A stretch of DNA of 22,737 nt. Origin: a virus. The notes under the pieces are model-generated. The model was not told where the DNA came from, did not search any database, and saw only the letters and a program-made list of their open reading frames with translations. Location of the stretch: IMG/VR virus record IMGVR_UViG_3300028272_000006, positions 1-22,737 of that record, one strand, 5' to 3'. Made by a program: the position numbers and the translations under genes. Below, in pieces: positions 7,446-12,942 of the stretch; positions within the stretch are counted from its first letter, which is position 1; every line of letters begins with the position of its first letter.

Positions 7446-7616
7446 CTAACCCCTTCGTTTGTCAGCCCACTCACCGAGGCCAGTAGGTTCTGGTTTCTTC
7501 TTCACAGGACAGACCTCGCCTGCTTGTTGACGTCTTCCAACGCCAGCGTTTTGTCGTTGAAAAGATTCCTTAAAAGGGCCTGTTCCGTTCTTTTTACCTC
7601 TTTGACTTTGTCCCAT
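7446..7616 (-). CDS. Small basic Gly/Gln/Arg-rich protein
   Basis: This encodes 56 residues beginning MGQSQRGKKNGTGPF and ending GEWADKRRG. The ATG at 7616 overlaps the HNH stop as TAATG and has GGAGGAG eight bases upstream, which strongly supports it as a real gene although it is short. It is strongly basic with one Cys-Pro (EVCPVKKKPEP). No domain is recognised. Its place between adaptor-region genes and nozzle pieces suggests a small virion component. Confidence 0.6.
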   Translation of the reverse strand: MGQSQRGKKNGTGPFKESFQRQNAGVGRRQQAGEVCPVKKKPEPTGLGEWADKRRG

Positions 7617-8077
7617 TATAGTTCTCCTCCTATATCTACATATACTTCGTTGCGAACTATATATCCTATATGTGATCTGTCTACACCGAATGTATCAGCT
7701 AGCTCCTGCTGAGTGAACTTTCCGATTGCATAACCTCTCCTTATAGCGGATATAGCATCAACTGAAAGTCTTCCTACCCTACTCTTCTTAACTGCGTCCC
7801 GAAGATTGTCCGAATCGTCTCCAAGAAACAGATGGTCAGAGTTAACGCAGGCAGGGTTGTCACACTTATGACATACGTGCATCCCTTCAGGAATCTCACC
7901 GAAGCAGATCAACCACGCGAACCTATGAGCCTTCCAGATCCTTCCCCCAAAAGCGAAAACGCCATAGCCCTTTGGGTTACGAGCCCCAGTCCATTCCCAA
8001 CACTGATCGACTTTCTCGACGTGACTAGAAAACCTATTGATTAATCTGTCATTTATCTCAGTCGACCAACAAGTCAT
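7616..8077 (-). CDS. HNH homing endonuclease with C-terminal helix-turn-helix
   Basis: This encodes 153 residues from ATG 8077 in an ATGA overlap with the preceding gene; AAGAGG lies eight bases upstream. The HNH core is clear: CWEWTG at 26-31, HRFAW at 51-55, then H67-V-C69-H70-K-C72-D73-N74-P-A-C77-V-N79 with H82-L83. This is the phage HNH_3-type layout with paired cysteines. Residues 119-140 (FTQQELADTFGVDRSHIGYI) form a helix-turn-helix likely to contribute DNA recognition. It is a free-standing mobile gene inserted between small structural genes; its target is presumably the intergenic site of intronless or insertless relatives. Family assignment is firm; target is inference. Confidence 0.9.
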   Translation of the reverse strand: MTCWSTEINDRLINRFSSHVEKVDQCWEWTGARNPKGYGVFAFGGRIWKAHRFAWLICFGEIPEGMHVCHKCDNPACVNSDHLFLGDDSDNLRDAVKKSRVGRLSVDAISAIRRGYAIGKFTQQELADTFGVDRSHIGYIVRNEVYVDIGGEL

Positions 8078-9796: not shown

Positions 9797-10929
9797 TTAT
9801 AAACTGTTGTCCTCACCAACGCCGTTCAAATATCCCCAACCGTTCGGATGATGATACTCAAGTCCGGCCTCAGTCAAGTACTCCTCGTCTGTTCCATCAC
9901 GCCGCGTCCAACCAGTGTTCTGTTTTTCTTCATCGGAGAAGAACGTGGTATCCGTGATGAATCGATACCTTAAGCCCGTCGGTTCGAAGATCACCATGCT
10001 ATGACGATTAGTGGCCTCAAACGAAAACAATGGATGAGTAACCATATTAACTATACCGAATGGGGTAATCCACTCGTTAACCGCCAGTCCATAGGCCTTG
10101 GTCTTCGGATTGATCTGAATAGTTCCGTAAGTCTCGGCCAACCGGTTAATACCGAGCAATGCTCCACTTCCGACAAACGCCAGTTTCTCACCTTTGCCGT
10201 ACCGAAACATCTGCTCGAAGTAAGTGTCCAACCAGTCCTTGCCACTCTGTAGCCAGGTATCACCAGAGTAGGTCGTATTGACCTTGAAACTGTCACTCAC
10301 ACCAACGTTGCTCGAACCGTCAGAGCCATACTGTAATGCCCTGATAAGACCCATCGTGGTTCGCTTAGGCTTGCCGTTTTCACCTGTGCCAGCCCACTTA
10401 TAGCCCCACAAGAAGGCTTTTTCCATCTCGATGGAATGTAGTTCCAGACACTCACGTTTGGCCTCACGGTAAGCGTCACCAGTTCTCAGCCTGGTCAACC
10501 GTGCGGTTCGGGTGATGCTCAGGGACGTCCGAAAGATCTCGGTGTAGTTTGACCACTCAACCGGATCGTAACTGATCGCATCAGGCATGTTAGCACCCTC
10601 AGCGTTGGCATTACCGATAACCAACAGTCTGTCACAGTCATCTATGCTGTAAGTGCTGTCATTGTCGTCGTCTTCGATCAGCTTAACACCGACGTTAAGT
10701 TGTGAAGTGTTTACCGAAGTGACCAAACCGTTAACGTCCACGGCGTAGTTACCAGTATACCTCATTAAAACCTGATGTCCCACTCTGAAGTGGGTCAGAT
10801 CACTCGCGCTCATTACGAAGTAAACGGTCTCACCTGAGGTTCTACTGTCACCAACCGCACCAGAGTTATTCACATTCATCCAACGAGCCGTTACTGTACC
10901 TGCCTGTGAAGGCAATAACTTCGTCCACC
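9797..10929 (-). CDS. Major capsid protein, exon 2 (SU10-like family)
   Basis: This is the second and larger capsid exon: 377 complete codons plus the last two bases of a split Trp codon, ending with TAA at 9797. It begins W-T-K-L-L-PSQAG and includes a beta insertion (residues with HFRVGHQVLMRYTG), the segment EIFRTSLSITRTARLTRL, then EAKRECLELHSIEMEKAFLWG, which fits the capsid family of phage SU10 (DUF5309-like, HK97 fold). The C-terminal part contains GIVNMVTHPLF and a Gly/Tyr-rich end. There is no start codon of its own with a ribosome binding site: the first codons look like TTG-CCT only by accident. Joined to exon 1 it gives a 435-aa protein, a normal length for the family. It is the most expressed gene expected here. 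Confidence 0.9.
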
Positions 10930-11767
10930 CAGGACGTCAATAGACTTTCATCTATTGTTGGACTATATCTTCACCCGATGTCACGGGTGCGACATTATAG
11001 TCTCTGAAGGTTTCACTGCCTCAGTGTAGTGTCTGAGTCTTTTAGCTTTTCGTGGAATCTGAAAGTAGCATCCAGCATCCACAAAGGAACGGATGTTAGG
11101 CTTAATAATATAAACAGTCTTGGAAAAGCCAGAAAGCTGCTTATGAATCTTTCCGACCTTTACACCAAGCTTCTGTAAGAGCCTTGCCACATCCTCAACG
11201 AACGTCTTATGTCTCGAAGCGAAGCCGACCCTCCATGAAACTCCATACTTAGCACCTGAATGCTTCTGCTCAGCAACATATCCATCAGTGTCGAAGAGCC
11301 CTGCCAGAAAGTCTAAGCGAGCTTTTCTGCTGGCTCTGAAGACCTCGTCTCGAATCACCAACTTCTCTCCTATAAAGTATCTGAAGAGACTATAAATAAG
11401 CTCGTTCGAAGCGTTGTAGCCGTACATCAAAGTTCCGTTCGGATTGGTGTAGGAGTACACTTTGTAGTTAGTACCAAAGAAAGTATCAATCTCATGGCTC
11501 GTTCTCTGAACGCAACTCAGGTCCATATTGCGTAAGTGAACATTGATTGCAGATCCATACTTTCCTATGCTTCCGTCTCCAGTCATAGCACCAATCGAAT
11601 AAGCTAAAGGTTCAAAGTACTTGTCCATAATATGCAGTAAATTTCCCTGCTGATTGTCCATAGTATCCTCTCCAGTTTCACGCTTTGGTCGAAGTAGGCT
11701 TTAGGAGTTTCCAGCAATTTCTGTCGTTTTATATCGAGAGATTTCGCTCTCGTTCACCAGTAGACCT
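10930..11767 (-). ncRNA. Group I self-splicing intron in the major capsid gene
   Basis: An 838-nt intron splits a Trp codon of the capsid gene. Elements seen on the transcript: P1, exon end TTCATT (11773-11768) with guide GGTGAA (11758-11753), giving a U-G pair at the 5' splice site; P10, CTACT (11763-11759) with exon 2 GGTGG; P2, CGAGAG/CTCTCG (11752-11735); P3, CGACA (11726-11722) with TGTCG (10994-10990); P4, TTGCTG (11717-11712) with CAGCAG (11652-11647); P7, GACTATA (11002-10996) with TATAGTC (10967-10961); P8, CACCCG/CGGGTG (10989-10972); P9, CAATAGA/TCTATTG (10957-10938). The last intron base is G (10930), as required. The core sequences TTCAGAGACTATA and AAGATATAGTCC are typical of phage group IA introns. 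Splicing joins CAT-T to GG-TGG-ACG, giving His-Trp-Trp-Thr. Confidence 0.96.
10981..11661 (-). CDS. LAGLIDADG homing endonuclease inside the capsid intron
   Basis: This encodes 226 residues from ATG 11661, with GGAGAGG eight bases upstream. It has two LAGLIDADG motifs, LAYSIGAMTGDGS at about 19-31 and LDFLAGLFDTDGY at about 116-128, so one chain forms the two-fold active site with acidic residues D29 and D126. Between and after them are the usual saddle strands (INVHLRNMDLS, SWRVGFASRH, KTVYIIKP). It probably cuts intronless capsid genes at the HWWTK-coding site to spread the intron. It may also help folding as a maturase, which some family members do. The first codons overlap the 3' strand of P4 and the last codons overlap P7, P3 and P8, so protein and ribozyme constrain each other. 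A start at Met12 is possible but has no better site. Confidence 0.95.
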   Translation of the reverse strand: MDNQQGNLLHIMDKYFEPLAYSIGAMTGDGSIGKYGSAINVHLRNMDLSCVQRTSHEIDTFFGTNYKVYSYTNPNGTLMYGYNASNELIYSLFRYFIGEKLVIRDEVFRASRKARLDFLAGLFDTDGYVAEQKHSGAKYGVSWRVGFASRHKTFVEDVARLLQKLGVKVGKIHKQLSGFSKTVYIIKPNIRSFVDAGCYFQIPRKAKRLRHYTEAVKPSETIMSHP

Positions 11768-11942
11768 AATGAAAAATAGGGTCGTCAACTTTCTCCTCTC
11801 GCAACTTGGAGAGAATTGCAGTCAACGGAGCCTGGCCATTTGGATAAAGGTACAGCATCGTCTCACGCCAATTCTCCGGACGTTGATTGTCGGCCCAGTC
11901 GCCTGTACCACGCATCCCAAGAAATCCAGGATTTCCAGCCAT
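11768..11942 (-). CDS. Major capsid protein, exon 1
   Basis: This exon encodes the first 58 residues of the capsid protein plus one base of codon 59. It starts at ATG 11942 with GGAGGTG eight bases upstream. The protein reads MAGNPGFLGMRGTGDWADNQ, then RPENWRETMLYLYPNGQAPL, then TAILSKLREEKVDDPIFH. The 'Pro-Asn-Gly-x-Ala-Pro-Leu-Thr-Ala' stretch and the 'DDPxFHWWTK' junction are typical of the N-terminus of SU10-like capsid proteins. Without splicing, translation stops at TAG directly after His58, releasing a 58-aa fragment. Confidence 0.93.
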
Positions 11943-12545: not shown

Positions 12546-12569
12546 TGAAAAATCTCCTTTGGTTTAAGA

Positions 12570-12716
12570 TTATTTCTTCTTGCCAGATTTCCTTTTGGCC
12601 TTTGGTCTGACCTTTTTCACTTCATACGAAGTACCACACTTAGGACAGACACTAACCTCAGAGTAACCTGGCATTCTGAACTTGCACTTTGGACAAATTT
12701 TAGTTTCGTCTACCAT
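12570..12716 (-). CDS. Small zinc-ribbon protein
   Basis: This encodes 48 residues from ATG 12716. Two CPKC knuckles, C8-P-K-C11 and C24-P-K-C27, separated by twelve residues, form a rubredoxin-type zinc ribbon. The C-terminal twenty residues are Lys/Arg-rich (VRPKAKRKSGKKK) and could bind nucleic acid or acidic protein. The ribosome binding site is only AAGG. The gap before the next gene is 24 bases. In a morphogenesis region, such a protein could be a minor head component or a regulator; neither can be decided here. Confidence 0.7.
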   Translation of the reverse strand: MVDETKICPKCKFRMPGYSEVSVCPKCGTSYEVKKVRPKAKRKSGKKK

Positions 12717-12738
12717 TGTTATACCTTGAGTTTAAGGT

Positions 12739-12942
12739 TTAAGTACATTCCTCAGTGCCTTTAACCGTTACGTTAAGTGACCACTTCTTGTCATTAGGCA
12801 CTTGGTCAGCAATCAGGTCTTCCCACTCTCCTCCTCGCTCCTTGGTCTGTACTCTGACCTTCGTCTTCTCGTTCATTGTAAGTGTAAGACTACCATATAA
12901 GGAAGCAGGAGTGGTGACACATTCTGTTCTTGATAGTTCCAT
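12739..12942 (-). CDS. Small beta-rich protein of unknown function
   Basis: This encodes 67 residues from ATG 12942. The sequence predicts as beta strands (ASLYGSLTLTMNEKTKVRVQ, then KKWSLNVTVKGTEECT). No clear ribosome binding site is seen, so it may start by coupling or be weakly expressed. It lies between the 885-aa fibre-like gene and the zinc ribbon. No family is recognised. Confidence 0.5.
   Translation of the reverse strand: MELSRTECVTTPASLYGSLTLTMNEKTKVRVQTKERGGEWEDLIADQVPNDKKWSLNVTVKGTEECT

Follow-up and report, generated by a model that had tools for sequence, protein, structure and literature searches.

For phage introns, a tendency to sit in genes of nucleotide and DNA metabolism has been stressed (PMC11878797). 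Introns in the gene for the major capsid protein (MCP) have been published for the mycobacteriophage LittleE and for crAss-like phages. In LittleE, excision of a group I intron from the MCP gene was shown by RT-PCR and protein sequencing (PMC3706429), and in a crAss-like phage the MCP is encoded in five fragments (PMC7886860). The locus described here is located in IMGVR_UViG_3300028272_000006, a 22.7-kb linear IMG/VR virus fragment from a metagenome assembly, which was analysed over its whole length of 22,737 nucleotides (the window). It resembles LittleE, where an ~820-bp insertion in the MCP gene has a U before the 5′ splice site, a terminal G and a LAGLIDADG-like open reading frame (ORF) inside (PMC3706429). 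However, LittleE is a temperate mycobacteriophage with an HK97-type capsid and an intron ORF on the opposite strand (PMC3706429), whereas the window has an SU10-type capsid and an ORF on the sense strand inside the intron core; the two are likened by description. The crAss-like Zeta phages are similar: there, too, an uncultured phage has its MCP gene split by group I introns, with several in one gene (PMC7886860). Their capsid lineage is unlike that of the window, and the closest parallel to them is a relative of the window locus, L013, with two ORF-bearing insertions in its MCP gene.

The minus strand of the window includes genes for a terminase (phrog_38), an SU10-type portal (PF23899) and an SU10-type MCP (PF17236), and the nearest capsid protein in the cultured collection is that of Desulfofustis phage LS06-2018-MD01 (46% identity). 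A free-standing HNH endonuclease ORF (HNH_3, phrog_1872; 7616–8077, minus strand) lies between structural genes. The MCP frame starts with an ATG at 11942 and runs into a TAG directly after His58, and the frame downstream (9797–10915) was recognised as SU10_MCP (PF17236, E 5e-29). Joining of 11942–11768 to 10929–9797 gave a 435-aa MCP with the junction DDPIFH-WWTKLL, so that removal of the segment between them restores a Trp codon and an HWWTK motif in frame, as predicted. Exon 1 (11768–11942, minus strand) comprises codons 1–58 and the first base of codon 59, and exon 2 (9797–10929, minus strand), which carries the SU10_MCP domain, includes the stop codon. The intervening 838 nt (10930–11767, minus strand) are inserted in phase 1 within the Trp59 codon and have a G+C content of 44%, as compared with 49–50% in the exons.

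Two contigs that lack the insert, L001 and L002, encode MCPs 85–88% identical to that of the window. In BLASTN, the alignment of the window with these relatives breaks exactly at 11768|10929, whereas the relatives are contiguous at 2986|2987; the empty-site junction in L002 reads TTTCATTGGTGGACTAAG. Hence, the limits of 11767–10930 given in the original prediction were right to the base. As read from the sequence, a junction moved by one base either way would give HGWTK or a stop codon. The insert is absent from 37 of the 38 MCP relatives among the viral contigs, in which exons 1 and 2 are contiguous, and the WWTK motif is kept in most. Alignment with these intronless proteins placed the join at residue 58/59, in agreement with the expected position. 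In the 38th relative, L013, a homologous intron occupies this site.

Homologous introns were found in the same codon region of the same capsid family in four more uncultured phages from IMG/VR, namely L013 (the same contig as L041 and L166), L163, L164 (the same contig as L044) and L165. The ribozymes of these introns are 73–78% identical, and their endonucleases 56–62% identical, to those of the window. Sequence comparison thus confirmed the proposal of a group I intron at 11767–10930, within an SU10-type MCP gene, on the evidence of the intronless relatives, of the compensatory changes seen with the four homologous introns and of an Rfam match below the curated cut-off. A group II intron was considered and rejected, as an Rfam group II match was absent and the ORF does not encode a reverse transcriptase.

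The helices originally proposed (P1, P2, P3, P4, P7, P8, P9 and P10) are all present at definable coordinates on the minus strand. P1 (11753–11773) is formed by UUCAUU of the exon (11773–11768) and GGUGAA of the internal guide sequence (11758–11753) and covaries in the five introns; the last U of the exon pairs with G, and an in-frame UAG is located directly at the 5′ splice site. The P10 guide UCUACU (11759–11764) has GGUGGA of exon 2 (10929–10924) as its partner. P2 is a hairpin, CGAGAG/CUCUCG (11735–11752). The 5′ strand of P3, CGACA (11722–11726), pairs with UGUCG at 10994–10990, and the relatives show CG to UA and AU to GC double changes. The P4–P5 region (11648–11716) consists of P4 (11716–11711 with 11653–11648) and P5 (11706–11704 with 11659–11657), and the loop of P5 contains a Shine-Dalgarno-like GGAG. 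On the 3′ side, P7 (11002–10996 with 10967–10961), the 3′ strand of P3 and P8 (10989–10984 with 10977–10972) occupy 10961–11002, followed by the P9 hairpin CAAUAG/CUAUUG (10938–10957) and the terminal guanosine (omega G) at 10930. The 3′ strand of P3 starts one base after P7, which presumably leaves no room for P7.1/P7.2 as in subtype IA.

In all five introns, the core helices P3, P4, P5, P7 and P8 are formed in the right order. Across P1–P5 and P7–P10 of the five introns, 245 of 249 pairs form. This proportion is biased upward, as the pairings were first picked by eye and checked afterwards, and the compensatory changes carry more weight. Such double changes were observed in 18 columns, located in P1 (4), P10 (4), P2 (2), P3 (2), P8 (3) and P9 (3), and P4, P5 and P7 do not vary among the five introns. 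When the strands of P1, P2, P3, P8 and P9 were slid by 1–3 nt, pairing fell from 97% to 28–45%. The U·G pair at the 5′ splice site and the terminal G, both noted previously as typical of group I introns, are shared by all five, as are a P10 of 6–7 pairs and, at the 5′ junction, a UAG in frame with the MCP.

The anticipated match to the Rfam covariance model RF00028 was obtained over the whole segment (11777–10939, 29.7 bits, E 1.7e-5), but its score does not reach the gathering score of 50, which is a curator's threshold and not a biological definition. The score is lowered by the ORF insert of ~650 nt within the core, which stretches the alignment; the match to the 3′ half of the intron gave 27.9 bits. 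Free energy minimisation of the single window sequence did not return the full group I fold, a frequent outcome with RNAs of this kind. Another Rfam-like match (12546–12805, 20.2 bits) covers ordinary coding sequence with a small zinc-finger-like ORF in it and was dismissed as due to chance.

The intron further includes an ORF for a protein of 226 aa in the P6 region (10981–11661, minus strand), which went unmentioned in the original prediction. This ORF overlaps the ribozyme core at both ends: its start lies on the 3′ strands of P5 and P4, the first residues MDNQQ being encoded by the core, and its stop lies in the P8 loop. The protein matched LAGLIDADG_3 in Pfam (PF14528, E 2.5e-13) and the PDB profiles of PI-PfuI (2e-7) and I-DmoI (3e-5), and the fold predicted by AlphaFold (pLDDT 84) was matched by Foldseek to 1dq3 (PI-PfuI, 5e-10) and I-DmoI (2e-9). 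It has two LAGLIDADG motifs, SIGAMTGDG and LAGLFDTDG; across the five homologues, both are conserved and their catalytic aspartates, D29 and D126, are invariant. As judged by motifs, Pfam, PDB profile and predicted fold, the protein is a putative LAGLIDADG homing endonuclease. Like I-DmoI and PI-PfuI, it would be a monomer with two LAGLIDADG motifs, although it shares ~20% identity with them and its cleavage activity is only predicted. With the single window protein as query, no match was found in the viral contigs; the endonuclease alignment as query recovered four relatives there. In the reference genomes, all LAGLIDADG matches were distant (23–35% identity, mostly archaeal), and hence a cellular source was not found among them. 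In the introns of L042 and L043, the same ribozyme-encoded MDNQQ start leads into a different, shorter endonuclease ORF (172–175 aa). Comparison with the window suggests an exchange of endonuclease ORFs on a single ribozyme scaffold.

In the MCP tree, four changes of state are needed to account for the four carriers that have full exons, at least three of these changes being forced by supported branches, and the sisters of the window, L001 and L002, are without the intron. Scattered carriers with intronless nearest relatives, together with the lower G+C content of the intron, fit a mobile element gained by homing; it is possible that the intron was instead lost in L001 and L002. Endonuclease identity between carriers (50–72%) is about that of their capsid proteins (55–62%), which indicates that no recent donor was sampled, and no near-identical intron in another phage was found among the viral contigs.

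The insertion lies inside codon 59 (T|GG) in the window, L013 and L163. In L164 and L165, it is located after codon 57, 4 nt upstream, a placement supported by P1 (AGUAU/GUACU and AGUUU/GAACU), P10 (UAUUGG/CCAAUA), the terminal G and the length of the spliced protein. Placement of these two introns at the site used in the window was rejected, as it would leave no terminal G and a protein one residue shorter. L164 and L165 have the closest pair of endonucleases (72%), and therefore one shift suffices to account for the offset. There is about an even chance that the five introns represent a lineage confined to the SU10-type capsid gene in which the insertion point slid by 4 nt, P1 and P10 having been rebuilt in two members to splice after codon 57 with the in-frame UAG kept. 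The alternative for L164 and L165 is an independent insertion at a neighbouring site. The 4-nt upstream placement of two homologous introns, accompanied by corresponding changes in P1 and P10, is a small novelty. The contig of L013 (IMGVR_UViG_3300023257_000135) has a second insertion upstream in the same MCP gene, after MAFLGMR (L166:2340–3260), which includes a separate LAGLIDADG-like ORF and a core resembling td/nrdB (AAACGGGGAACCTCTC, GACAATCCCGTGC).

The best explanation of the locus as a whole, and a highly probable one, is a mobile group I intron in the Trp59 codon of the MCP gene that would be excised as RNA and spread by its endonuclease. The intron looks intact, and from its anatomy and the comparison with relatives we infer the splicing chemistry, the ribosome-stop effect, DNA cleavage and homing. 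On the late transcript, a ribosome translating exon 1 would halt at the UAG at the 5′ splice site, and the ribozyme could then fold unhindered. Stop codons in frame with the upstream exon have been described and are believed to assist intron folding by halting the ribosome (PMC3984707). P1 would present UUCAUU to the internal guide and guanosine would attack after the U at 11768; the freed exon, aligned by P10, would then attack after the terminal G at 10930, joining CAU-U to GG so that the complete 435-aa MCP would be encoded again. Translated from unspliced RNA, the LAGLIDADG protein would cleave capsid genes that lack the intron at the same conserved HWWTK-coding site, leading to copying of the intron into co-infecting phages.

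It is conceivable, though improbable, that the intron is a regulatory device tuning capsid output and that its ORF encodes a maturase instead of, or besides, an endonuclease. The LAGLIDADG maturases bI3 and I-AniI are also among the Foldseek matches, and translation of the ORF, the start of which lies within P4/P5, could compete with splicing. However, most close relatives make capsids without the intron, and homing with no regulatory role would fit both the scattered distribution and the conservation of the two LAGLIDADG motifs. Less probable still is a degenerate remnant that has lost splicing, the capsid gene being broken or the contig misassembled. The sub-threshold Rfam score would fit such a remnant. 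Against it, no damage is seen in P1, P10, the core or the terminal G; the endonuclease reading frame is uninterrupted, the two MCP exons are whole and in frame with each other, and homologues occur on four independent contigs. An intein, or another in-frame insertion removed at the protein level, has a negligible probability in spite of the occurrence of LAGLIDADG endonucleases in inteins and the fold match to PI-PfuI, being excluded by the TAG at the first codon of the insert in the MCP frame and by a separate ORF that starts at an ATG of its own and terminates before exon 2 is reached; in addition, a Hint domain was not found and the ribozyme helices covary.

The mobile group I intron favoured here is one of a known type, with earlier examples in other phages. 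The original prediction regarded a capsid-gene location as unusual, but it is not exceptional, given LittleE, the crAss-like MCP genes and several further introns in MCP and other major-head genes in IMG/VR. Among the viral contigs, the 3′ core pattern matched only the four other carriers, and thus the exact lineage looks confined to the SU10 capsid site. A narrow 5′ core pattern was found in five contigs, always in capsid genes and in three kinds of these (SU10 MCP, phrog_9953 and phrog_212). With a looser core pattern, introns were found in many gene types, including the major-head genes phrog_1357, phrog_138 and phrog_11589. A capsid preference of the intron core holds only for the narrow 5′ core family, with few cases.

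Further introns were observed in other contigs. In L042, the MCP gene (phrog_9953-like) contains an intron with an endonuclease and, farther downstream, a group I intron without an ORF (L042:4203–4443) that reaches the Rfam gathering score (54.1 bits). L040 has a further group I intron (L040:7111–7491, 81.5 bits) besides the one in its MCP gene. Eighteen intron cores lie in genes of one cluster (L058, L059, L062, L063, L066, L088, L103 and others), the tested members of which match phrog_4088. This group gave no Pfam match, and its capsid identity is unconfirmed by Pfam or PHROGs; capsid-like by eye, it may represent an intron-rich major capsid family that lacks annotation.

Automatic gene calling would split MCPs of this type: exon 1 (58 aa) would be missed, and the call for exon 2 would begin at an internal TTG. 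The introns described here add a well-documented family of mobile capsid-gene introns for which the exact empty site is known in close relatives, and the 4-nt offset between homologous members would make a change of a group I insertion point testable.
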